Positions 1-35,593 of a stretch of DNA of 37,344 nucleotides are shown one piece after another. The notes under the pieces were generated by a model that was given only the letters and a program-made list of their open reading frames with translations, did no database searches and had not been told where the DNA came from. A program made the position numbers and the translations under genes. Location of the stretch: positions 1 to 37,344 of the forward strand of contig JAJXWD010000028.1 in assembly GCA_021781835.1 (NCBI GenBank). The letters are read 5' to 3'. Origin of the DNA: Pseudomonadota bacterium. GTDB lineage: Bacteria; Pseudomonadota; Alphaproteobacteria; Acetobacterales; Acetobacteraceae. Position 1 is the stretch's first letter. The number at the start of each line of letters is the position of its first letter.

Positions 1-3000
1 GAGCCGCCGCCGATCGCCGAGGTGGCGCCGTCGAGCAGCGTGTCGCTCGGCGAGGACGAGCCCGCCGCCACCGACGCCGCCACCGCGAACCCGCCCGAAC
101 CACCGGCCCCGCCAATCGATTGCGCCAGAATACCGTCAGAGAGCCCGCCCGACGTCGAGATGCCCAAGCCCCCGCTGGTGACGCCGACCGCGCCGCCCTT
201 GCCGCCCGTGCCGCCATTGCCGGCCCCCACATTGGCCGCCGCGTCGGTCTTCTGGCCCGCCACCGAGGCGCCAATGGCAAACCCGCCCGCGCCGCCCGAA
301 CCCGCGATCGATTGCGCCAATATGCCCGTCGCGCTCACGCCCTCTGTCACCACCGCATCCGCGTTGGCGACATTGACCGCGCCGCCAATACCGCCCGCGC
401 CGCCATTGCCGCCGCCAACGCTCGAATCCGCGCTGCTGCCGAGTGAAAGCTGTGCCCCCACGGAGAAACCGCCATTGCCGCCATTACCGGCGATGGATTG
501 CGCCGCGATGCCGGTGGCGAAATCGCCCTGGGTCTGCACCTGGCCATTGCCATCCGCCGCCAGCTTGGTGGTGACGTTGACCGCCCCGCCCGTGCCGCCG
601 GCACCGCCCGCGCCGCCGGTGCTGGCGGTGCCGCTGGCCTCGCCGCTGCCGCCGCCAATGGCGGATTCAACACTGCCATAGAGTTGCGCGGCGGTGTTGT
701 TGCCGCCCTGCGCATCGAGCGACACGCCCACCGCGAACCCGCCCGAGCCGCCATTGCCGCCAATGGATTGCGCCAGAATGCCATCTGAATTGGCGCCCTG
801 GGTGGAGATCAGGTCTCCCGTCTGGGTTACGCTCACCGTCCCGCCCAGACCGCCGGCGGCACCGGCGCCGCCAATGGCGCTGGTGCTGCCCCCGGCCGCC
901 GAGGCCAGGTTGGACGAATAAGACAGCGACGCGCCGACCGCGAAGCCGCCAGACCCGCCAGACCCGCCAATGGACTGCGCCAAAATACCATCTGACGAGG
1001 CGCCATTGGTGGTGATGTTATCGGCATTGGCCACCGTGACATTGCCGCCCAAACCGCCCAAACCGCCCGCACCGGCGCCGACGCTGGTGGAGGCCTGGCT
1101 TTGCACCGCGATGCCAGCCCCAACCGCGAAGCCGCCCTCGCCGCCCGAACCGGCGATGGATTGCGCCGCGATACCCGACGAGAACGCGCCCTGCGTGGTA
1201 ATCGCCCCCGCGCCACCAGCCGTCAGGCCGCTGACCGCGACAGTGACCGCCCCGCCATTGCCGCCCGAACCGCCCGTGCCGCCCGATGAGCTGGTGCCCG
1301 ATCCGGACTGGCCGGAACCGCCGCCAATGGCATCGAGCGCCGTTTGCAGCCCGCTCTGCAAGGGGTTGCCCGTGCCCACGGCAATGGACGCGCCGACCGA
1401 AAACCCGCCCGAGCCGCCCACGCCGCCGATGGATTGCGCCAAAATGGCGTCGGAGGAGGCACCCTGGGTTGAAATGCCGTTGCCGCCGCTGATGACCGAG
1501 ACCGCGCCGCCCGTGCCGCCATTGCCGCCATTGCCCGCGCCCACATTGGCCGCCGCGTTCGAGGAATCGACCGCCAGCGAGGCGCCGACCGCGAAGCCGC
1601 CCGCACCGCCCGAGCCGCCAAGCGACTGCGCCAGAATGCCCGCCGAATTGAAGCCCTGGGTGGTGATCTGATCGGCGTTGTTGACATTCACCGCCCCGCC
1701 CACGCCGCCCGAACCGCCCGCGCCCGCGCCGACATCGGTTTCGGCGGCGGAGGCGATGGCGGCGCCGGCGCCGACCGAGAAGCCCCCATTGCCGCCCGAC
1801 CCCGCGATGGACTGGGCCTCGATGCCGGCGGAGAAATTGCCGACCGTGCCGATCTGCCCGAGCCCGCCGCTGGTCAGATTGGTGTTGACCGTCACGCTGC
1901 CGGTTGTGCCGCCCGTGCCGCCATTGCCGCCGGTCGAGCTGGCGCTGGCCCCTGCCGGCCCGGCGCCGACCGCCGAGAGCATTTGCTGGGCGATGGCCGT
2001 TTGCGGCGTGTTGACATTGAGCGCCACCGACACGGCAAAGCCGCCCGAGCCGCCGCCACCACCCACCGATTGCGCCAGAATACCGTTTGAATTGGCGCCC
2101 ACCGTGGAGATCACGCTGCCCGTATTGGTTACGGTGACCGTGCTGGCATTGCCGCCCGCGCCGCCGCCGCCACCGCCCACCGTGGAGTCGGCGTTGCCCG
2201 CCAAGGTCAGCCCCGCGCCGACCGAGAAACCGCCCGCGCCGCCGCCGCCGCCAATGGATTGCGCGACAATGCCGTTGGCGCTGGCGCCCGAGGTCGAGAT
2301 CATGTCGGCGTTGGTGACCGAGACCGCGCCCGCATTGCCGCCAATGCCGCCCGCCCCGCCGACCGTGGTGGTGGCCGCCGTGCCGCCGACACTGGCATTG
2401 GCGCCGACCGAGAAGCCGCCATTGCCGCCGCCGCCGCCAATGGATTGCGCCAGCACGCCGTTGGAGAAATCACCCGTGGTCTGCACCGTGTCGGTGGCCG
2501 TGGTGCTGTTGATCGTGACCGCAACCGCGCCGCCGACGCCGCCCGCCCCGCCCGCGCCGCCCGTGGCGGTGGTGGAGTTTTGCGGGAATTGCGCGCCCAG
2601 CAGGTTGGAAACCGTGCCCAGCGCCGATGTGCCAAGCCCGACCCCGACCGAGAAGCCGCCATTGCCGCCGCCACCGCCGATGGATTGCGCGATGAGGCCG
2701 GCTGAGTTGGCGCCCGCCGTGGTGATCGAGCCGTTGAGCGAGGCATCGACCTCGCCGGCCGTGCCGCCGCTGCCGCCCGCGCCGCCGAGCGACTGGGCCA
2801 TATCCCCCGCCAGCCCAACCGCCGCCGCCACCGAGAAGCCGCCATTGCCGCCGCCGCCGCCCACCGACTGCGCCAAGATACCCGCCGAATTGGCGCCCTG
2901 CGAGGCGATGTCGCCCGTCGCGACGACGGTGACCTTGCTGGCCGTGCCGCCCAAGGCGCCGCTGCCGCCCAGCGCGTTGGAGGCGCCGTAACCCAGGCTG

Positions 3001-26270: not shown

Positions 26271-28181
26271 ATGCAGTCTTTCCGCTTTGCCTCACGGGCC
26301 GATCAATTGAGCTCCTCCCCCTTCCGCGGCGCCGATCCGGGAGACATCAGCCGTTCCTGGCAGCGCTGCCGCATGCTGGGGCTCACCCCTGAGCAAAACC
26401 GGCAGGATTTCCCCCATGCCTCGGGCGGCGCGCTGCGCTCGGCCCTCGAGCGGCGGGCCACGCTGGTCTCCCAGGCCCGCCCGATCATCGATTATTTTCA
26501 CGGCCAGATCAAAGACAGCGGCTGCATCATCCTGCTCTCGGATGAAAACGGCTACCTGCTCGACTCGGTCGGCGACACGGATTTCGGCCATCGCGCCGCC
26601 AAGGTGGCGCTCAGCCCCGGCGCCTCCTGGGCCGAGGAAAACCGCGGCACCAACGCCATCGGCACGGCGCTGGTCGAGCGCAAGCCCGTGGTGGTCAACG
26701 GCACCGAGCATTATCTGCGCCATAATTCCTTCCTCGCCTGCGCGGCCGCGCCGCTCTCCCAGCCCAATGGCGAGCTGCTGGGCGTGATCGACATTTCCTG
26801 CGACCACCGCGCCTACCACCCGCACACGTTCGGGCTGGTGCGCGCCGCCGCCCAGATGATCGAGAACCGCATGTTCGAGATCGCCTTCCTCAACGCCACC
26901 AAGCTGCGCTTCCACGTCTCCAGCCATTCTCTGGGCACCGTGATGGAAGGCGCCATCGCGCTGGCCGAGGATGGGCGGGTGCTTGGCGCCAACCGCGCGG
27001 CCTTCGCCATGCTCGGCCTCGCCCCCAACGACATCGGCACCCAGGACGTATCGAATTTCTTCGACGTCTCGCTCTATGAGCTGATGGACCTCGACCGCCG
27101 CGCCCAAGGCCGGCCCATGACCATCCATCTGCGCCGGGGCGAGACGGTCTATATCTCGGTCGATCAGTTCCGCGGCCAGCTCGTCCGCCGCCCGCACCCC
27201 CTCACCGAAGCCCCGCCCAAAAACGACGCGCTCGATGAGCTCGACACCGGCGATGAGCGCGTGACCCGCGCCATCGGCCAGCTCCGCCGCGTGCTCGGCC
27301 GCAAGGTGCCCATTTTGCTGCAAGGCGAAACCGGGGTGGGCAAGGATTATTTCGCCCGCGCCATCCACGCCGCCGGGCCGCGCGCCAAGGGGCCGTTCGT
27401 GGCCGTCAACTGCGCCGCCCTGCCCGAAACCCTGATCGAGTCCGAGCTGTTCGGCCACGCGCCCGGCGCCTTCACCGGCGCCAAGAAAGACGGCGCGCTG
27501 GGCCGCATCCGCGAAGCCAATGGCGGCACCTTGTTCCTCGATGAAATCGGTGACATGCCGCTCTCCGCCCAGACCCGCCTGCTGCGCGTGCTCGAGGAAG
27601 GCCAGGTCACGCCCATCGGCGGCAAGCCGGTGCCGGTGGATTTCCTGCTCATCAGCGCCACCCACGCCGATTTCTCGACCCGCATCGCCGAGAAAACCTT
27701 CCGCGCCGATCTCTATTACCGCCTCAATGGCCTGGCCGTGTCGCTGCCCGCGCTGCGCGACCGCTCAGACATCATCACCCTCGTCGAGCGCATCCTGGCC
27801 CGCGAGGCCGGCCCGCGCGGCGGGCGCGCGCCGCTGCTCTCGCCCGAGCTCGCCGCCACGCTCAACAGCCATGCCTGGCCCGGCAACATCCGCCAGCTCG
27901 CCGGCATGCTCCGCACCGCCTGCCTGATGCTCGAGGAAGACGAGGACACGCTCTGCCTGCACCATTTCAGCGAAGAGGCGCACCGCGAGCTGACCACCAG
28001 CAAACTCCCCGCGGCCAAGGCCGAAACGCTGTGCCCCGCCACCACGCTCCGCGCGCAATCGGACGCCATGATCGCCAGCGCGGTTGCCGAAGCCGGCGGC
28101 AACATCGCCGCCGCCGCCCGCAATCTGGGCATCAGCCGCAACACCCTCTACCGCCGTCTGGCGGCAATGCGCACACATTAG
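26271..28181 (+). CDS. AcoR-like sigma-54-dependent transcription activator
   Basis: The product has 636 residues. Domains in order: an N-terminal segment with SRSWQRC and a GAF-type sensor (about 60-200, with EENRGTNAIGTALVERKPVVVNG typical of AcoR), a PAS-like region (about 220-310), a AAA+ domain with GETGVGKD (about residue 353), the sigma-54-contacting GAFTGA (about 399) and a Fis-type helix-turn-helix at the end (AGGNIAAAARNLGISRNTLYRRL). AcoR-class proteins sense acetoin, acetaldehyde or related compounds. The divergent aldehyde dehydrogenase gene with a sigma-54 promoter is the obvious target. The ribosome site AGGA is rather distant (about 13 bases), so the start is the weaker part of this call. 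Confidence 0.92.
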   Translation: MQSFRFASRADQLSSSPFRGADPGDISRSWQRCRMLGLTPEQNRQDFPHASGGALRSALERRATLVSQARPIIDYFHGQIKDSGCIILLSDENGYLLDSVGDTDFGHRAAKVALSPGASWAEENRGTNAIGTALVERKPVVVNGTEHYLRHNSFLACAAAPLSQPNGELLGVIDISCDHRAYHPHTFGLVRAAAQMIENRMFEIAFLNATKLRFHVSSHSLGTVMEGAIALAEDGRVLGANRAAFAMLGLAPNDIGTQDVSNFFDVSLYELMDLDRRAQGRPMTIHLRRGETVYISVDQFRGQLVRRPHPLTEAPPKNDALDELDTGDERVTRAIGQLRRVLGRKVPILLQGETGVGKDYFARAIHAAGPRAKGPFVAVNCAALPETLIESELFGHAPGAFTGAKKDGALGRIREANGGTLFLDEIGDMPLSAQTRLLRVLEEGQVTPIGGKPVPVDFLLISATHADFSTRIAEKTFRADLYYRLNGLAVSLPALRDRSDIITLVERILAREAGPRGGRAPLLSPELAATLNSHAWPGNIRQLAGMLRTACLMLEEDEDTLCLHHFSEEAHRELTTSKLPAAKAETLCPATTLRAQSDAMIASAVAEAGGNIAAAARNLGISRNTLYRRLAAMRTH

Positions 28182-28189
28182 ATCAATAT

Positions 28190-28225
28190 TGGTTTAGATT
28201 GAGTCGACAGACGTAAGCTAAACCA
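28190..28225 (+). repeat. Structured hairpin element, copy A (conserved loop, covarying stem)
   Basis: The stem TGGTTTAG/CTAAACCA encloses a loop containing GAGTCGACAGACGTAAG. A second copy at 35485-35520 keeps this loop with two changes but has three compensated pair changes in the stem. The element begins nine bases after the AcoR-like stop codon, and the alignment to copy B continues without gaps to about 28257. Confidence 0.7.
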
Positions 28226-28316
28226 ATGAAACTGATCGTTAAAATATAACTAGAGCGAGCTGCGTTGTAACGCAGCCGCTCCAAGCCTGTTTTAGCGCTC
28301 AATTTCATTGGTTTAG
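28218..28316. repeat. Long 99-base hairpin between convergent genes
   Basis: Outer arms CTAAACCAATGAAA/TTTCATTGGTTTAG (28218-28231, 28303-28316) pair perfectly, the middle is imperfect, then GAGCG/CGCTC and a perfect inner stem GCTGCGTT-GT-AACGCAGC (28259-28276). It separates the convergent AcoR-like and DUF934 genes and may stop transcription from both sides. Its left arm can instead pair with 28188-28197. Confidence 0.75.
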
Positions 28317-28339
28317 GCCGCCGCCCCTTGGCCGCGCGG

Positions 28340-28717
28340 TCAGGCTTCGCGCGCGCGCTCCAGATGGCGGCGCAGCAGCTGGCCGCTTTGGCGCCCGCCC
28401 AGCACGGCGGCGAATTGCGCGGCCGTGCGGCCCTCGGGCAGGGCGAAGCTGGTGAAGCCGCAATCGCGCAGGAAGCGGAACTGGTCGGGGATGAAATGCC
28501 CGACCGCCCGGATGTCGCCGCCAAAGCCCAGACGCTCGCGCAGCAGCCGCGCCTGGCTGAAGCCCCGGCCGTCGCGGAATTTGGGAAACTCGATCTCGAC
28601 CCGCGTGACCTTGGCCAGTTGCCCGGCCAGCTCCTGGGGGTTGTCGGCGGGGGTCAGGCGCAGCGCCTCACCGGCCTCGTCGGGGATTTCATGGGCGTTT
28701 TTGTCAATCAGCAGCAT
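28340..28717 (-). CDS. DUF934 family protein linked to sulfite reduction
   Basis: The product has 125 residues. ATG 28717 is chosen because a full AAGGAGG lies seven bases upstream; a longer open frame to 28981 runs through the sulfite reductase gene out of frame and is not real. Family marks are RVEIEFPKFRDGRGFSQARLLRERLGF, DIRAVGHFIPDQFRFLRDCGFTSFAL. DUF934 genes almost always follow siroheme sulfite or nitrite reductase genes in proteobacteria. The protein may be an accessory or electron-transfer adaptor, but the role is not established. It overlaps the reductase gene by 14 bases. Confidence 0.88.
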   Translation of the reverse strand: MLLIDKNAHEIPDEAGEALRLTPADNPQELAGQLAKVTRVEIEFPKFRDGRGFSQARLLRERLGFGGDIRAVGHFIPDQFRFLRDCGFTSFALPEGRTAAQFAAVLGGRQSGQLLRRHLERAREA

Positions 28718-30698
28718 AGACAGCCTCCTTGAACGGCTTGGCGCCAACACGGCGGTACGTATCGATGAAACGCTCGCCCGGTTCGCGGGTGGCCATATAG
28801 GCATCCACCAGCGCCTCCACGGCTTCGGGCACCTTGGCGGTCGGCACGGCCGGGCCGATGATCTGCCCGATCGCCGCCTGCTCATCGGCGGCGCCGCCGA
28901 GCGTGATCTGGTAAACCTCCTCGCCGTTGCGGTCGACGCCGAGCAGCCCGATATGCCCGACATGGTGATGCCCGCAGGCATTGATGCAGCCCGAGATGTT
29001 CATGTGCAGCGTGCCGATGGCCGCCTCGCGCGCGGCCAGGCGCTCGGCCACGCGCTGGGCCACCGGAATGGAGCGCGCGGTGGCCAGCGCGCAATAATCC
29101 ATGCCGGGGCAGGCGATGAGGTCGGACACCAGCCCGAGATTGGCCACCGCCAGCCCGCCCGCCTTCAGCGCATCGTAAAGCGGCTTCACATCGTCCTTGG
29201 CCACGTGCGCCAGCACCAGGTTTTGCACATGCGACACCCGGATCTCGCCGCCCGCGTAACGGTCTGCCAGCTCCGCCACCAGCTCCATCTCGGCGGCCGA
29301 GGCATCGCCCGGGATCGCGCCGGGTTTTTTGAGCGCGATCGCCACCGAGACATAGGCCGGGTGCCGGTGCGCCTGGGTGTTGCGCGCCACCCAGGCGGCA
29401 AATTCCGCATCCTCGCCAAGCGCCAGGGCAAGGGCCCCGCCATCGGCGCGGGTGAAGGTGGGCACGGGGAAACGCGCGCGGATGGCCTCGACCAGCTCAT
29501 CTTCCAGCACGCAATAGCCCGCGGGCAGCGCGGCATACTCATCCTCGACCATCTGGATGAAGTGCGCGGGCTTCATCTCCCGGATGGTGATCTTGATCCG
29601 CGCCTTGTAGATATTATCGCGCCGCCCCAGCGTGTTATAAACGCGCAGCACGGCTTCCAGGTAGCGCAGCAGCTCGGCCTGGGGCAGATCCTCGCGCAGC
29701 ATCACCGCGACCACGGGCGTGCGCCCGAGCCCGCCGCCCGCGAACACGCGAAAACGCGGCGCGCCGTCGGCGCCGGGATACGCCTCGATGCCGACATCAT
29801 GCACCCGCACCGCCGCGCGGTCATGCGCGGCGCCGGTGATGGCGATTTTGAACTTGCGCGGCAGATAGGTGAATTCCGGGTGGTCGGTGGACCATTGGCG
29901 CATGATCTCGGCATATAGCCGGGGGTCCACGCGCTCATCGGCGGCCGCGCCGGCATATTCGTCGGTGGTCACGTTGCGGATGCAATTGCCCGAGGTCTGG
30001 ATGGCATGCAGCCCGGCCTCGGCCAGAACGGCCATGGCGCGTGGCGCGTCTTCCAGCGTCTGCCAGTTGAACTGGATGTTTTGGCGGGTGGTGAAATGGC
30101 CGTAGCCCCGGTCGAAATGGCGCGCCACATAGGCCAGCTGGCGCAGCTGCACCGAAGACAGCACGCCATAGGGAATGGCGACGCGCAGCATATAGGCGTG
30201 AAGCTGGTGGTAGAGCCCGTTCATCAGCCGCAGCGGCTTGAACTCGTCTTCCGAAAGCTCGCCCGACAGGCGCCGCGCCACCTGGTCGCCGAACTCGGCG
30301 GCGCGCTGGCGCAAAAACGCCCGGTCATATTCGTCATAGCGATAAATCCCGGCAGCGGGCGCCTCGTGGTCGGCCGAGGGCAGGGGCGGCAGCGCGGTGC
30401 CGCTCTCGCGCCAGCGCCCGGCCGGCAGGTCGGCGCGCACGCTCGGGCCGCGCGCGCGGATCTCCTCGCGGTATTGCGCGGGCTTGAGCCCGTCTGGCCC
30501 CTCGGTCACCGGAATCGCCCGCAGATCGAGCAGGGCGCGTGCCTCATCGCCCGGCGCGGATGCCGCCAGCGCGGCCTCCAGCGCCGCATCGTCATACACG
30601 GCGGCATCGGCGAAACGCTCACCCCACCCCGCCGCGCCGGCGAACCAGATGGTCACGCCATCGCGCAGGCGGTTGGCGGTTATCACTTGCAAACCCAT
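28704..30698 (-). CDS. cysI: DUF2849-sulfite reductase (CysI-like hemoprotein) fusion
   Basis: The product has 664 residues. The first 90 or so (MGLQVITANRLRDGVTIWF...GLKPAQYREEIRARGPSV) match DUF2849, which in other alphaproteobacteria is a separate small gene beside cysI. The rest is a siroheme/[4Fe-4S] sulfite or nitrite reductase: HFTTRQNIQFNW, then cluster ligands Cys530 and Cys536 (CPGMDYC) and Cys571 and Cys575 (CINAC). It reduces sulfite to sulfide in the cytoplasm for cysteine synthesis. Sulfite is favoured over nitrite by the DUF934 gene downstream and the divergent serine acetyltransferase gene. The ribosome site before ATG 30698 is weak. Confidence 0.88.
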   Translation of the reverse strand: MGLQVITANRLRDGVTIWFAGAAGWGERFADAAVYDDAALEAALAASAPGDEARALLDLRAIPVTEGPDGLKPAQYREEIRARGPSVRADLPAGRWRESGTALPPLPSADHEAPAAGIYRYDEYDRAFLRQRAAEFGDQVARRLSGELSEDEFKPLRLMNGLYHQLHAYMLRVAIPYGVLSSVQLRQLAYVARHFDRGYGHFTTRQNIQFNWQTLEDAPRAMAVLAEAGLHAIQTSGNCIRNVTTDEYAGAAADERVDPRLYAEIMRQWSTDHPEFTYLPRKFKIAITGAAHDRAAVRVHDVGIEAYPGADGAPRFRVFAGGGLGRTPVVAVMLREDLPQAELLRYLEAVLRVYNTLGRRDNIYKARIKITIREMKPAHFIQMVEDEYAALPAGYCVLEDELVEAIRARFPVPTFTRADGGALALALGEDAEFAAWVARNTQAHRHPAYVSVAIALKKPGAIPGDASAAEMELVAELADRYAGGEIRVSHVQNLVLAHVAKDDVKPLYDALKAGGLAVANLGLVSDLIACPGMDYCALATARSIPVAQRVAERLAAREAAIGTLHMNISGCINACGHHHVGHIGLLGVDRNGEEVYQITLGGAADEQAAIGQIIGPAVPTAKVPEAVEALVDAYMATREPGERFIDTYRRVGAKPFKEAVYAAD

Positions 30699-31002
30699 GG
30701 CGGCACAGTCCCACGCTTAACTCTCGCGCTGGAGATAGCGTGTTTTGCGGCCCCGTCCAGCAAAATCAGCAAAATTTTAGCAAAAAATTTTCTTTTTCTC
30801 TTTGATCGGCCCAAGTCAGAGAAAACTTTCTTCATTTTTGGCCAGTCGGAAAAGTTTCCTAAATTCACCCGGGAAAAGGCAAAAGCTTTCCGCCCCGCCG
30901 GCGGCTCTTGCGGGCTTGTTTCTCCGCCACCAATTTACAGGGGGTGCGGGGGCCGGTAATCTGGCGCCCTGGCTGCGCCACACGTCGCACAAAGGATCTT
31001 TC
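30699..31002. promoter_or_regulatory. Divergent promoter region of the sulfur-assimilation genes
   Basis: This 304-base gap between the reductase and cysE genes contains an unusually AT-rich block (30770-30880) with the inverted run AAAATTTT...AAATTTT at 30772-30795. It probably carries both promoters. I see no gene in it, and no operator I can name. Confidence 0.5.
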
Positions 31003-31935
31003 ATGGGCATTGACGAGCCTTGCTCTCCTCCCGCGCCCGCCTCGCAAAGCGCCGGCGCCGATCTCACCGCCATTGTCGCGGGGCTGCGCCTCTCGCGGGA
31101 GGTGACGCATGTGGTCCGCCACCGGGGCCATATCCGGCTGCTGCCCTCGCGCGCCGCGCTCGAGAAAATCCGCGACGGGCTGTTCGCCGCGCTGTTCCCC
31201 AGCCATTATGGCTGCCCCGACCTGACCGACGACACGATCGATTATTATGTCGGCCATACGCTGGCCCAGGCGCTGATCGCGCTCCGCGAGCAGGTCCGCC
31301 GCGACCTGATGTTTCGCGACCCGGCCGATGCCGCCCATGATGCCGAGAGTCTCTCGGCCCGCATCGTGCGAGAGTTCGGCGCCCAGCTGCCCGCCTTGCG
31401 CGGCATGCTGGCCGAGGATTTGCAAGCCGCCTACCAGGGCGACCCCGCCGCCCGCTCAATGGCCGAGGTGCTGCTGGCCTATCCCGGCATGCGCGCCATC
31501 ATCCATCACCGGCTCGCCCATGCGCTGTGGCAGCTGGGCGCGCCCCTGGTGGCGCGGCTGCTGGCCAGCATCTCGCAGGCCGAAACCGCCATCGACATTC
31601 ACCCCGCCGCCCAGATCGGCCGGGGGTTTTTCGTCGATCACGGCATCGGCGTGGTCATTGGCCAGACCGCCATCATCGGCGACAATGTGCGGCTGTACCA
31701 GCATGTCACGCTGGGGGCCAAGCGCTTTACGGCCGACGAGACGGGCGCGCTGGTGAAAGGCGAGCCCCGCCACCCGATCATCGAGGATAATGTGGTCATC
31801 TATGCGGGGGCCACGATTTTGGGACGCATCACGGTCGGGCGGGATTCGACCATTGGCGGCAATGTCTGGCTCACCCAGTCGGTGCCGCCGGGCAGCTCCA
31901 TCACCCAGGCCCAAAGCCGCCAGGCCGAGGCGTAG
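31003..31935 (+). CDS. cysE: Serine O-acetyltransferase
   Basis: The product has 310 residues. ATG 31003 is preceded by AAAGGAT; an in-frame extension to 30802 has no support. The N-terminal helical domain (about 20-190, including SHYGCPDLTDDTIDYYVGHTL) matches the long SrpH/EpsC-type enzymes. The left-handed beta-helix follows (about 195-300), with hexapeptides, catalytic His in DIHPAAQIGRGFFVDHGIGVVIG, and YQHVTLGA. It acetylates serine for cysteine synthesis and uses the sulfide made by the neighbouring reductase. Its TAG stop is formed at the left boundary of a MITE-like element; before insertion it would have been TAA at the same codon. Confidence 0.93.
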   Translation: MGIDEPCSPPAPASQSAGADLTAIVAGLRLSREVTHVVRHRGHIRLLPSRAALEKIRDGLFAALFPSHYGCPDLTDDTIDYYVGHTLAQALIALREQVRRDLMFRDPADAAHDAESLSARIVREFGAQLPALRGMLAEDLQAAYQGDPAARSMAEVLLAYPGMRAIIHHRLAHALWQLGAPLVARLLASISQAETAIDIHPAAQIGRGFFVDHGIGVVIGQTAIIGDNVRLYQHVTLGAKRFTADETGALVKGEPRHPIIEDNVVIYAGATILGRITVGRDSTIGGNVWLTQSVPPGSSITQAQSRQAEA

Positions 31936-32185
31936 AGACTGTTTTGAAAGTTTTTTGGGGCCGCCTGCTCGGGTCGCTTGAACCGGTGGCGCGCCCCTCC
32001 TGCTCGGGTCGCTTGAACCAGTGGCGCTCCCCTCGCAGGTTTACAAAAAAGGGGCGGGATCTTGGGGCGCTTTTTATAAAACCGAGCCGCGCGCCATTGG
32101 GTCGAGCGTGCGGCGAAGCCCCAAACTCCGCAAAAACTTTTAATAATTTCAAGTTATTGTAAAAGATAACTTTTAAAACAGCCTC
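31935..32185. mobile_element. MITE-like non-autonomous element with TA target duplication
   Basis: The ends GAGACTGTTTTGAAAG and CTTTTAAAACAGCCTC are inverted repeats with two mismatches in 16, and each is flanked by TA (31933-31934 and 32186-32187). The ends resemble those of IS5-family elements (GAGGCTGTTT type), an inference from memory of that family. The 251-base interior has no transposase and no gene I can support; short frames in it lack ribosome sites. It contains a 35-base tandem duplication. Confidence 0.7.
31964..32033 (+). repeat. Two tandem copies of a 35-base unit
   Basis: Units 31964-31998 and 31999-32033 both begin CCTGCTCGGGTCGCTTGAAC and differ at two positions. They lie inside the MITE-like element. 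Confidence 0.85.
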
Positions 32186-32255
32186 TAATACCATCCCGCC
32201 AAATATTTGATCCTTCGAGTCCGGTGGCGGGATGGTAAGATACACACATATCGAT

Positions 32256-32660
32256 CTAATCCGCCTCGAACGCCGCGCGCGCCGCGCGCACCTGGCCGTG
32301 ATTTTCGTGCGCCCAGGAGATCAGCGCGTAAAGCGGGCCGGTAAAAGCGTGGCCGAGTTCGGTCAGCTCATACTCGGTGCCGGGTGGCGAGGTCGGCAGC
32401 ACGGTGCGGCGCAAAAACCCGTCGCGCTGCAAGGTGCGCAAGGACTGGGTGAGCATGCGCTGCGAAATATCGGGGATCATCCGCCGCAACTCGCCAAACC
32501 GGCGCGGCCCCGCCGAGAGCAGCCCGATGATGATGCTGCTCCATTTATCCCCCACCCGGTCGAGCACATCGCGCACCGGGCAGGCCCCGGCGTCGAACCC
32601 GCATTCCACGGGCGGGCGCACCAGCCCCGCCAGCGCCGCCTGGTCCGCTTCCCGATCCAT
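32256..32660 (-). CDS. HxlR-family transcription regulator
   Basis: The product has 134 residues with the winged helix typical of HxlR proteins: CPVRDVLDRVGDKWSSIIIGLL, RRFGELRRMIPDISQRMLTQSLRTLQRDGFL, EYELTELG. An additional cysteine lies just before the family cysteine (CGFDAGACPV), which could support thiol-based sensing; such sensing is known for some family members but not shown here. It is divergent from a flavodoxin-family gene, with an inverted repeat between them, so it probably regulates that gene in response to quinones, aldehydes or similar electrophiles. ATG 32660 has only a weak ribosome site. Confidence 0.9.
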   Translation of the reverse strand: MDREADQAALAGLVRPPVECGFDAGACPVRDVLDRVGDKWSSIIIGLLSAGPRRFGELRRMIPDISQRMLTQSLRTLQRDGFLRRTVLPTSPPGTEYELTELGHAFTGPLYALISWAHENHGQVRAARAAFEAD

Positions 32661-32717
32661 CCTCTGGTTACCTCGCTGTGCCTAAGGGTGTGCAACCTGC
32701 CTTCTTTACAGGCCGTG

Positions 32718-32750
32718 GTCTCTTTCTTAGCTGTGGTTACTGAAAGAGAC
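32718..32750. promoter_or_regulatory. Inverted repeat, candidate HxlR operator
   Basis: Perfect 9-base arms GTCTCTTTC and GAAAGAGAC are separated by 15 bases. The site lies between the divergent HxlR and flavodoxin genes. A direct repeat CAACCTGC also flanks it (32693-32700 and 32763-32770). Confidence 0.55.
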
Positions 32751-32787
32751 AAACAGTCTTTTCAACCTGCTTTGCTTAGAGGATCTC

Positions 32788-33345
32788 ATGACCGACACTG
32801 TCATTGTGTATTATTCCGGCTATGGCCACACCGCCAAGGTGGCCGAGCGCGTGGCCAAGGGCGCGCATGCCGCGCTCATCGCGGTGGACGCCAATGGCGA
32901 CATCACCGAAGCCGACTGGGCGGCGCTGGATGCGGCCGGCGCGATCATCCTGGGCGCGCCCACCTACATGGGCGGCGTGCCCTGGCAGTTCAAGAAATTC
33001 GCCGATGCCTCCTCCAAGCGCTGGTTCAGCCGCGCCTGGCAGGACAAGATTTTCGGCGGCTTCACCAACAGCGCCAGCCCGGTGGGCGACAAGGGCGCCA
33101 CCATCGGCTACCTCCAGGTGCTGGCCTCGCAGCATGGCGGCATCTGGGTGAGCCTTGGCCTGCTGCCCGCCAACACCAAGGCCTCCACCAGCGCCGACAT
33201 CAACAATATCGGCGGCTCGGTCGGGCTGTTGACCCGCTCGCCCTCGGATGCCTCGGCCGATGAGGTGCATACCGGAGACCTCGACACGGCCGAAGCCTAT
33301 GGCGCCCGTGTCGCCGCCATCGCCGCGCGCTTCGCCAAGCCGTGA
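32788..33345 (+). CDS. Flavodoxin-family (WrbA-like) oxidoreductase
   Basis: The product has 185 residues with an FMN-binding start (VIVYYSGYGHTAKVAERVAKGA), LGAPTYMGGVPWQFKKFADASS and the FTNSASPVGDKGATIGYLQVL segment. It most resembles NAD(P)H:quinone-reductase-like flavodoxin-fold enzymes, which reduce quinones by two electrons. AGAGGA precedes ATG 32788. The divergent HxlR regulator supports a role in electrophile stress. The stop codon lies in the left arm of a hairpin. Confidence 0.85.
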   Translation: MTDTVIVYYSGYGHTAKVAERVAKGAHAALIAVDANGDITEADWAALDAAGAIILGAPTYMGGVPWQFKKFADASSKRWFSRAWQDKIFGGFTNSASPVGDKGATIGYLQVLASQHGGIWVSLGLLPANTKASTSADINNIGGSVGLLTRSPSDASADEVHTGDLDTAEAYGARVAAIAARFAKP

Positions 33346-33378
33346 TACCCCCCCGGCCTCGCGGCCGGGTGGTATCAC
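33342..33378. terminator. Hairpin overlapping the flavodoxin gene stop codon (copy 1)
   Basis: Arms GTGATACC and GGTATCAC enclose a second stem, CCCGGCC-TCGC-GGCCGGG. The TGA stop is in the left arm. A nearly identical hairpin follows at 33420. It may end transcription, or be a REP-like repeat. Confidence 0.65.
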
Positions 33379-33419
33379 TGTTTGATTTTGCGCGCGGCCG
33401 CCCCGCCAGCCCCGCGCGT

Positions 33420-33451
33420 TATACCCCCCGGCCTCGCGGCCGGGTGGTATA
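33420..33451. repeat. Hairpin copy 2
   Basis: TATACC/GGTATA arms enclose the same CCCGGCC-TCGC-GGCCGGG core as copy 1, 78 bases away. It lies 15 bases before the deacetylase ATG, so it could affect its translation. Confidence 0.65.
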
Positions 33452-33466
33452 CTTGACGCCGCCGCC

Positions 33467-34213
33467 ATGGGGGCGCCAAACAGCGCCCTCATGTGCCTGA
33501 TCTGCCGCCCCGTCTCGCGCCGTGCTTTTTGCGCCGGCGCCCTCACCCTGCCGCTGCTGCCCGGCCATACGCGCTACGGGCTGGAGGAGCCGGTGCTCCG
33601 CCTCGCCCCCTCGGGCGGGCGGCGCGTGGCGGTCACGCTCGATTGCTGCCCCGGCCGCTTCGATATGCGCATCGCCTCGGTGCTGATCGCCCGCAAAATC
33701 CCGGCGACCATTTTCGTCACCGCCATCTGGATGCGCGAAAACCCGGAAGCCCTGGCGCTCATGCTCGATCATCCGGATTGTTTTACCCTCGAAAACCACG
33801 GCGCCAATCATGTCATGCCGGCGCTCGACACAACGCCCATCTGGGGGCTGCAACCGGCCGGGTCGTATGACGCCATCCGCGCCGAGGTGGAAAACGGCGC
33901 CGACGCGGTGGAAAAGGCCACCGGCCGCCGCCCTGTCTGGTACCGCGCGGCGGGCGGGCTTTATTCGCCCCAGGCCATCCCCTTCATCGAGGGGCTGGGC
34001 TTCAAGATCGGCGGCTATTCGCTCAACGCCGACGCCGGCGCCTCGCTGCCCGCCGCCATGGTCGCCAGGCGTTTGGAAGCCGCCCAGGATGGCGATGTGA
34101 CCGAAGGCCATATCAACCAGCCCAAACGCGCCGCGGGAGCGGGCATTGCCGCCGGGCTGGCGCGGCTTGCCGATCAAGGCGTGCAATTCACCACCCTCGA
34201 CGCCGCCTGCTAA
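33467..34213 (+). CDS. Polysaccharide deacetylase (NodB-homology) protein with export signal
   Basis: The product has 248 residues. RR at 18-19 followed by AFCAGALTLPLLPG suggests a Tat or Sec signal. NodB motifs are visible: TLDCC in place of TFDDG (the metal Asp is replaced by Cys), ENHGANH for HxxxH, WYRAAGGLY for the RPPxGxY motif, and TEGHINQP for the last His. The enzyme would remove acetyl groups from a cell-wall or surface polysaccharide; the substrate is unknown. The start could also be ATG 33491. No strong ribosome site precedes either. A repeat element of the copy A/B family starts at its stop codon. Confidence 0.82.
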   Translation: MGAPNSALMCLICRPVSRRAFCAGALTLPLLPGHTRYGLEEPVLRLAPSGGRRVAVTLDCCPGRFDMRIASVLIARKIPATIFVTAIWMRENPEALALMLDHPDCFTLENHGANHVMPALDTTPIWGLQPAGSYDAIRAEVENGADAVEKATGRRPVWYRAAGGLYSPQAIPFIEGLGFKIGGYSLNADAGASLPAAMVARRLEAAQDGDVTEGHINQPKRAAGAGIAAGLARLADQGVQFTTLDAAC

Positions 34214-34276
34214 CCCAATGAAATTGACCGCTAAAACATGACTGAAGCGGGTGAACGGCAACGCATCCCGCTCTAG
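34210..34276 (+). repeat. Dispersed repeat family, copy C
   Basis: The sequence starts CTAACCCAATGAAATTGACC and aligns without gaps to copy A from 28218 and, on the opposite strand, to the right arm of the 99-base hairpin (28252-28316). Shared cores are CAATGAAATTGA, CGCTAAAACA and GCGTTG. The deacetylase stop TAA is inside its first bases. The 5' hairpin of copies A and B is absent. Confidence 0.7.
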
Positions 34277-34550
34277 AGTATCGATTTTCCCGGTATCCTG
34301 CGGCTGACCGGTATGCGCGTGGCGTTGGCGGGGCGGCCACGCGCAAACTCAAGAAATTATACCAGCCGGTGTGCCGCCAGCCTCGCCCGGCTGTGCGGTG
34401 AAGCACATTATTTTGCACAAAACACCACTCACCCGGCATTAAACCACTTGCTATGTACTAATCAGTTAGTTATATCCATCTCGACAGCAACAAAGCATCA
34501 TCCTCTGCGCGCCCCCTGAAACCGTCCCGCGCAGTGCCTGGAGTGTCCGC
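34214..34550. promoter_or_regulatory. Region between deacetylase and shikimate/quinate dehydrogenase genes
   Basis: The first 63 bases are repeat copy C. The rest, to 34550, holds no gene that I support and has an AT-rich block at 34380-34500 that probably carries the promoter of the dehydrogenase gene, with a small palindrome at 34457-34470. Confidence 0.5.
34457..34470. promoter_or_regulatory. Small palindrome, candidate operator
   Basis: ACTAA-TCAG-TTAGT resembles the short two-fold sites of TetR-class repressors. It sits about 85 bases before the dehydrogenase start in AT-rich DNA. No regulator gene is in view, so the binding protein is unknown. Confidence 0.35.
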
Positions 34551-35432
34551 ATGATCACGCTTGAAACGGCCCCCGCCACGGCGGTGCCCAGCCTCAAACT
34601 CGGCCTCATCGGTGCCGATATTGGTCCCTCGCGCTCGCCCGCCATGCATATGGGCGAAGGCCGCGCCCAGGGGCTGGCCATTCGCTATGATTTATTCGAC
34701 CTCACGGCCCGCCATCTGAGCGTGGCCGACCTGCCCGCCTTACTCACCGAGATCGAGGCCGCGGGTTACCGGGGGGTCAATGTCACCCACCCGTGCAAGC
34801 AGGCGGTGATTCCGCTGCTCGACGCGCTCTCCCCCGAGGCCGAGGCGCTCGGCGCCGTCAACACCGTGCTGTTTGAAAACGGCCGGCGCATCGGCAACAA
34901 TACCGACTGGTACGGTTTTTCCGAGAGCTTCACACGTGGCCTCCACGGCGCCGATCTGCGCCATGCCGTGCAGCTGGGCGCCGGTGGCGCGGGCACGGCG
35001 GTGGCCTATGCGCTGCTCAAGATGGGCGTTGAAACCCTCACCCTCATCGATGCCGACCCCGCCCGCGCCGAGGCCATCGCCACCCGCTACGGCGCCTTGT
35101 TCGGCCATGGCCGCATCCAGGCCGGGATCGACGCCAAAGCCGCCCTCGCCGGCGCCACCGGCCTGGTCAACGCCACGCCCATCGGCATGGCCGCCCATCC
35201 CGGCCTGCCGCTCGATGCCGCCTTGCTCCGCCCCGATCTGTGGGTGGCCGAGATCATCTATTTCCCGCGCGAAACCGCCCTTCTCAAGGCCGCCCAGGCC
35301 ATGGGGTGCCGCACGCTCGATGGCACGGGCATGGCGCTTTATCAGGCGGTTCAAGCCTTTCGGCTGTTCACCGGCCGCGAGCCCGAGCCCGCCCGCATGC
35401 TGCAAACCCTGCAAGCCGTTCCGGCGCCCTAG
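34551..35432 (+). CDS. Shikimate/quinate 5-dehydrogenase family enzyme
   Basis: The product has 293 residues. The N-terminal domain has IGPSRSPAMHMGEGRAQGLAIRYDLFDL and the catalytic Lys in NVTHPCKQAV; the catalytic Asp is in GNNTDWYGF; the cofactor loop is GAGGAGTAVAYAL. The EGRAQG segment after SPAMH is characteristic of catabolic quinate/shikimate dehydrogenases rather than biosynthetic AroE. GGAG lies before ATG 34551. The genes downstream encode an ACS-type MFS transporter and an OprB-like porin, so uptake and oxidation of quinate or shikimate is the likely role. A biosynthetic role is not excluded. Confidence 0.85.
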   Translation: MITLETAPATAVPSLKLGLIGADIGPSRSPAMHMGEGRAQGLAIRYDLFDLTARHLSVADLPALLTEIEAAGYRGVNVTHPCKQAVIPLLDALSPEAEALGAVNTVLFENGRRIGNNTDWYGFSESFTRGLHGADLRHAVQLGAGGAGTAVAYALLKMGVETLTLIDADPARAEAIATRYGALFGHGRIQAGIDAKAALAGATGLVNATPIGMAAHPGLPLDAALLRPDLWVAEIIYFPRETALLKAAQAMGCRTLDGTGMALYQAVQAFRLFTGREPEPARMLQTLQAVPAP

Positions 35433-35484
35433 CGCAACATCCGGTCAGGTGGCTCCCATCTGAGCGGATAAATTTGCGCGCTAC

Positions 35485-35520
35485 GGGCTTGGCGTGAGTC
35501 GGCAGACGGAAGCCAAGCCC
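35485..35520 (+). repeat. Structured hairpin element, copy B (conserved loop, covarying stem)
   Basis: The stem GGGCTTGG/CCAAGCCC encloses GAGTCGGCAGACGGAAG. Compared with copy A the loop differs at two positions, while three stem pairs change together (T-A to G-C, T-A to C-G, A-T to G-C). The alignment continues through GAAATTGACCGCCAAAAC to about 35552. It lies 52 bases after the dehydrogenase stop. Confidence 0.7.
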
Positions 35521-35593
35521 CGGAAATTGACCGCCAAAACAAGACCAGAACGTCCAGCTGTTCAGACCGGCGCGCCGGCGCCGCAATGAACAC

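Follow-up and report, generated by a model that had tools for sequence, protein, structure and literature searches.

Two copies of a repeat lie in the window (the whole stretch of DNA analyzed, 37,344 nucleotides), one at the end of a gene for a sigma-54-dependent regulator and the other beyond a gene of the shikimate dehydrogenase family. The original prediction was of a conserved hairpin at 28190-28225 and 35485-35520; both copies were found at these positions, 28190-28225 being only the upper part of hairpin 1 (H1). The feature is thus real but larger than noted: H1 is the left half of a two-hairpin repeat of about 101 bp, which continues through a linker into a second hairpin (H2) ending at 28281. 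The features are as follows.

26271-28181, plus strand: gene for a sigma-54-dependent regulator (GAF, AAA+, and Fis-type HTH domains), ending in copy 1
28179-28180, no strand: left TA target dinucleotide of copy 1; the stop context in relative G007 is TTAA
28179-28181, plus strand: TAG stop of the gene at 26271-28181, with TA from the target site and G as element base 1
28181-28281, plus strand: copy 1, full-length element (H1, linker, and H2), 101 bp
28181-28237, plus strand: H1 of copy 1, outer arm similar to IS630 ends
28201-28205, plus strand: GAGTC (a GANTC site) at element position 21 of copy 1
28253-28281, plus strand: H2 of copy 1; the right-hand TA is CA (28282-28283)
28282-28316, minus strand: truncated inverted second copy (linker and H1 3′ arm) having its H2 in common with copy 1, recognized by eye
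34551-35432, plus strand: gene of the shikimate dehydrogenase family, preceding copy 2
35476-35535, plus strand: copy 2, a decayed H1 without H2, 43 bp past the stop of the shikimate dehydrogenase gene
35496-35500, plus strand: GAGTC (GANTC) at element position 21 of copy 2

H1 of copy 1 has a base stem (GATCA..TGATC), an upper stem (TTGGTTTAG..CTAAACCAA), and an inner stem (GTC..GAC), and the linker between H1 and H2 is A-rich; an arrangement similar to the inverted copy with shared H2 at 28282-28316 is present at locus L044. A covariance model of H1, with a training set that included both window copies, scores 84.3 bits at 28181-28240 and 56.5 bits at 35476-35535. Pairing had been thought to be kept between the two copies by compensatory change; the three two-sided changes in the upper stem are real (pairs 10-45, 13-42, and 16-39), but five other pairs of the longer stem (2-56, 3-55, 6-52, 8-47, and 9-46) are broken in copy 2. 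Copy 1 does not start after a stop codon, as had been proposed: its base 1 is itself the G of the TAG stop. Copy 2 begins 43 bases past the stop of its gene.

Abundance, distribution, and covariation of the repeat

In the host genome (2.9 Mb), the H1 covariance model gives at least 138 matches at E up to 0.001, which by hand count represent at least about 95 distinct places (90 with E below 1e-6); the remaining matches overlap a match on the opposite strand, with scoring confined to 150 of the 823 first-look candidates. When at most two mismatches are allowed, the 17-base loop pattern matches 73 times in the same genome, compared with once for a reversed control; at least one of the 73 (C14:82287) is unlike an element copy. 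Among 52 full copies, 47 are 103 bp long including one TA, and tandem copies exactly 103 bp apart occur at three loci (L002, L039, and L040). The terminal repeats common to both ends of the element are very short (GAKC), a point against the IS630-type reading given below.

The search of relatives with a covariance model that accompanied the original prediction as a proposal was productive: among 147 genomes, searched with stricter filters under which weak matches are lost, 23 have an H1 match, namely the host genome itself, 20 of 37 other genomes of the genus, and one each in two other genera of the family. Distribution within the genus is patchy. In the genome collection, the repeat is carried by MAGs under the title Proteobacteria bacterium and by one titled Rhodovastum atsumiense (11 stretches, with the host genome possibly left out); the viral_contigs set contains no exact match to one stringent element pattern.

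Several variant copies were observed. Lone H2 hairpins without H1 occur at L102 and L104, that at L102 being flanked by TTA and TAG; at L100 (~1665-1720) most of H1 is deleted between ATCAAT and AAAATATA, with the left TA and H2 still present; and the loop/stem region of an H1 copy at L063 (~1967-2102, minus strand) is tandemly duplicated with a period of 27 bases. To look for an autonomous form with a gene between the hairpins, eight H2 matches lacking a strong H1, picked by eye from the lists for the H1 and H2 models, were inspected, and no such form was present among them; they comprise copies with H1 truncated or deleted, lone H2s, one match at L105 that runs off its contig, and one at L117 whose H1 has diverged. 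The ORFs between inverted copies at C64 were also considered and appear by eye to be ordinary metabolic genes.

Compensatory change in H1 is well supported when other genomes are included. In 25 H1 sequences (23 from other genomes and 2 from the host), 13 of 23 pairs changed on both sides (69 cells) and 94.6% of cells are paired, values reached by none of 500 shuffles; sliding the partner column by 1-3 leaves 22-47% paired, a control biased in favor of the structure because the structure was taken from one of the 25 sequences. Covariation is weaker among 26 H1 sequences from the host genome (5 of 23 pairs two-sided, equaled by 48 of 500 shuffles). Single-strand folding of the copy at L020 reaches -51.3 kcal/mol, whereas shuffled sequences average -19.5. 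A stem that covaries strongly across genomes and folds strongly is what might be expected of a selected RNA structure (a 3′-UTR stabilizer, terminator, or small RNA), spread with or without mobility; set against this, the window has no match to Rfam at the gathering score, and a search of four loci returned only one sub-threshold match, to a miRNA (E 0.25). Pairing of the H1 arms may be kept through inverted end sequences, selection for foldable DNA or RNA, palindrome correction, or a mix of these; function as an element end would not by itself suffice for the 3′ arm of H1, because this arm is not at the outer end. Strong stem covariation in a dispersed repeat need not imply a functional RNA.

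Target sites, empty sites, and stop codons

Element copies occupy YTAR sites between TA dinucleotides, in both orientations. In all 52 full copies (retrieved with a pattern fixing TAGA at the left, so that the left TA itself was preset), the left TA follows a C or T; the right TA is intact in 44 of 52, and the next base is A or G in 42 of these 44. The flanking bases and TAs indicate that the host site is YTAR and that its TA is doubled. Duplication of a TA target on insertion, a trait of the IS630 family, can be seen at two loci (L032 and L119), where relative G007 has an empty site with a single TA and the host genome has two. At both of these and at L113, the element is absent from G007 and the downstream flank is aligned at the site; L113 is empty in G007, and the right TA in the host has decayed. 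Other sites are less simple: L019 is empty in G007, but with TGA there; a few extra bases are present at the L022 site; and G007 bears another MITE family near the end of the L038 gene. The repeat acts as mobile DNA and not as a fixed 3′-UTR motif, which bears out the link to mobile DNA among the options first put forward.

Ten host copies have an identical H1 score (88.4 bits) and read alike; equal-scoring copies and empty sites in a close relative together indicate that amplification was recent. Both observations weigh against a dispersed repeat that is no longer mobile here, with arms alike only through palindrome correction (template switching); the decay of window copy 2 would suit such a repeat, as would the scarcity of candidate partner elements described below, and on balance we regard it as unlikely.

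The element supplies the G of the TAG stop of an adjacent gene in 28 of 52 full copies (16 with the left end, 11 with the right, and 1 with both), with stops called by a simple codon-score rule; at a stricter codon score the figure is 26 of 52. Of the 89 gene ends scored, a single one stops within the element at a place other than TAG. In relatives, 15 of 29 copies complete a TAG stop (9 left, 6 right), in a set where only the left end could be judged in 12 copies and the codon scores derive from the window itself. For YTAR sites outside elements (n = 382; called with a home-made gene caller on element-centered stretches, some of them overlapping), 31 are at stop codons, 234 are intergenic, and 117 are coding; 26 of 52 compared with 31 of 265 non-coding YTAR sites has a binomial probability near 1e-11, a value that does not include selection against insertions elsewhere. 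Both element ends begin with G, and therefore TAG is re-created on insertion into TAA or TAG with a preceding pyrimidine, in either orientation, which leaves the gene product as it was. A transposon whose target overlaps stop codons and whose ends rebuild the stop either way has a simple, low-harm means of spread.

Flanks of 20 of 29 stop-adjacent copies were placed in G007 (the six weakest of 26 matches being left out); at these mapped sites the G007 gene stops at the same codon with TAA in 6, TAG in 4, and TGA in 6, the other 4 being ambiguous. The TGA and ambiguous sites count against the insertion mechanism proposed below. In G007 the orthologue of the window gene has RTH-TAA (TTAA) at its end, stopping at the codon where copy 1 sits, and is not a clean empty site because the downstream sequence differs. 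The closest counterpart of the window gene in G009 and G022 (71-72% identity) has as its stop the TAG of another repeat, which is by eye related.

Placement of about half of the copies exactly at gene ends could also be taken as a sign of an RNA structure. However, the element meets stops with either of its ends, and for this reason a sense-oriented 3′-UTR motif or small RNA, another of the options in the original prediction, is not supported. Both orientations relative to the gene and the single-TA empty sites are likewise difficult to reconcile with selected RNA as the basis of the repeat, and we think this quite improbable; the element may nonetheless have a secondary RNA role after insertion.

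Probable relationship to IS630 elements, and comparison with described repeats

The repeat appears to be a non-autonomous miniature element (MITE) of the IS630 (Tc1/mariner) type, a reading to which we assign a probability of roughly 0.85. TA-bounded inverted ends were sought at IS630 loci of relatives (first at 25 loci and then at 30, with some elements in both sets). This left 16 distinct elements, 1,044-1,068 bp long and with ends of the GAG type (mostly GAGC); the other loci had other ends or none. The transposase ORF at one of them, L143, matches NCBIfam transpos_IS630 (NF033545) with E 1.7e-43. In a 16-base end test, the best of 32 IS630 ends exceeded all 29,302 interior IS windows for 11 of 13 MITE ends; the margin for the host element is one base (H1, 12 versus 11; H2, 13 versus 12), and neither end from G016 passes. 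For G007_H1 the top-scoring IS comes from the genome of the repeat itself, as it does with ties for G007_H2 and G031_H1; for the remaining ends it comes from a different genome. G031 and G007 possess IS elements with ends similar to their repeat. The G031 H2 end (GAGCGTTTTCCGATC) agrees with a resident IS at 14 of 15 bases of its 5′ end and 13 of 15 of its other end, and the H2 end of the host element (GAGCGGGATGCG) is identical to an IS630 5′ end in another genus of the family. The original prediction had named a match to a known IS end as an explanation that would undo it, and such a match was largely found, since the element ends resemble those of the IS630 family.

The mechanism proposed here starts from two hairpins joined by an A-rich linker, both outer arms similar to the ends of transposase-bearing IS630 elements of ~1.05 kb, with the GANTC at position 21 of the left arm paralleling the gene-5′ ends of those elements. 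An IS630 transposase, presumably supplied in trans, would excise the element, which would then enter the TA within YTAR with doubling of the TA (the doubling is seen at empty sites, and the chemistry is known for the family); insertion into a TAA or TAG stop preceded by a pyrimidine would yield TAG in either orientation and leave the product unchanged.

A matching autonomous IS630 would be expected to bear the ends GAKCAATATTGG and GAGCGGGATGCG. No IS630 with matching ends, and hence no autonomous partner, was found in the host assembly; the partner is missing, unassembled, or lost there. The only IS630 found there, on C46, was considered for this role and set aside: its transposase is 30% identical to that of L143, its ends by eye differ in type, and the contig start truncates it on the left. 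At that locus (L062, G000:C46, 1-900), the partial IS630-type element has its frame in two ORFs, and a copy of the repeat lies ~90 bp beyond. An L143-like transposase (E up to 1e-20) was detected in 10 of the 20 genus relatives that carry the repeat and in 9 of the 17 that lack it, so the presence of an L143-like IS630 does not track the repeat in the genus; DDE_3 has no match at all in 5 of the 19 element-bearing relatives searched. The 10 element-bearing relatives without an L143-like IS630, together with the host assembly, would favor a repeat that has lost its mobility. MITEs without a partner element in the same genome are not unusual.

A second mode of movement, as single-stranded DNA by a Y1 transposase (RAYT or IS200/IS605) acting on a REP-like element, would account for hairpins at both element ends and for a left-end YTAG that recalls GTAG-tagged REPs. 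One RAYT is present in the host genome, and the element is found in 5 of 6 RAYT-bearing genus relatives compared with 14 of 30 without RAYT. The host RAYT has a different flanking palindrome, however, which speaks against the proposed REP of a RAYT, and the check for such a transposase gave a divided result: of the 36 genus relatives, 14 carry the element with no RAYT match and 1 shows the reverse, but all except one of the RAYT-bearers have the element. TA at both ends, palindromic YTAR targets, and IS630-like ends also disagree with Y1 movement, which we consider very unlikely. The RAYT gene of the host (L069, G000:C10, ~1346-2030) is accompanied by inverted palindromes of its own (GTAGGGTGCAATGCC type, GTAG-tagged).

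The IS630-type MITE that we favor shares a further feature with the larger elements. Fifteen of the 16 IS630 elements have a GANTC within the first 60 bp of the gene-5′ end, and in 14 it is at position 21. The 5′ ends contain 43 sites in 960 bp, the interiors 5 in 14,907 bp, and the flanking host DNA 51 in 33,161 bp; these counts are not independent because the elements are related. The 16 opposite ends have no GANTC beyond base 5, three of them starting with GAGTC. At position 21, H1 has GANTC in 59 of 70 host copies; among the H1 sequences listed from other genomes, 20 of 28 have it. The inner hairpin of several relatives (GAATC-GNCA-GATTC) is similar to GAATC-NNNN-GATTC in the IS. The first 16 bases of H1, on the other hand, are closest to IS630 gene-3′ ends, whereas its GANTC is a gene-5′ feature; H1 would descend from IS630 ends, but not clearly from one particular end. 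At individual loci (L143-L149, L208, and others), GANTC sites concentrate in the outermost 60 bp on the upstream side of the transposase (with none in 1 of 16) and are infrequent inside.

This clustering raises the possibility of CcrM control of IS630 transposition, by analogy with Dam methylation, which times IS10 to DNA replication. It is conceivable that the GANTC of the repeat, and by extension of the CIR repeats discussed below, was inherited from the IS630 gene-5′ cluster starting 21 bases in, and that CcrM methylation times transposase expression or end use to replication; CIRs might then be IS630 MITEs under such control, targeted to YTAR sites and to stop codons that they re-create. 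We offer this extension tentatively and consider it less likely than not. Given the GANTC cluster in IS630 ends, CcrM control of transposition can be put to a direct test.

In its plan, the repeat is best read as built like the CIR repeats known from Caulobacter and Brucella. The CIR of Caulobacter (Chen and Shapiro 2003), as outlined in PMC2229807, is ~110 bp long with two arms and a linker, GANTC at a terminal loop, and TA termini; target duplication is listed there as unknown and the mechanism of mobility as unresolved. The present repeat has in common with it, as judged from that description of architecture, a length of ~100-110 bp, two hairpin arms with a linker, an alphaproteobacterial host, GANTC at or near the terminal loop of one arm (H1, in the host copies counted above), and TA termini (the right TA of the host copies, the left having been preset by the search pattern). 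Unlike the CIR as described there, it shows TA doubling and IS630-like ends. The RUP of Streptococcus pneumoniae (107 bp, 9 bp terminal repeats, TA target, with IS630-Spn1 as its proposed mover; PMC2229807) is similar in size, short terminal repeats, and target, and is a published precedent for a repeat moved by IS630; its host is of another phylum, and GANTC, a two-hairpin plan, and a stop-codon pattern are unmentioned in the passages on RUP in that source.

IS630/ISY100 elements (Tc1/mariner) insert at TA with TA doubling, and an IS630-linked preference for TA in CTAG is named in a title among the references of PMC2170065; unlike these, the repeat has no transposase gene. Bru-RS1 and Bru-RS2 of Brucella, also an alphaproteobacterium, are palindromic repeats of 103-106 bp (PMC10800456, PMC2267715, in excerpt), and are alike in size and palindromic form according to those descriptions. 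MITEPsy1 of Pseudomonas syringae (100 bp; targets CTAG or YTAA) differs in having 18-bp terminal repeats, a 4-bp duplication, and a tentative assignment to IS5, as described in PMC3189936. The literature accessible outside subscription journals, for the most part, yielded no link between CIR and IS630 and no report of stop-codon re-creation by such a repeat. The repeat suggests an answer to the question left open in PMC2229807, namely that two-hairpin GANTC repeats of alphaproteobacteria may move by IS630-type transposition into YTAR.

Relatives G007 and G031 (among L182-L206) contain further two-hairpin repeat families with TAGAGCATTTTCC- or TAGAGCGTTTTCC-type ends, which are TA-bounded in most copies examined.
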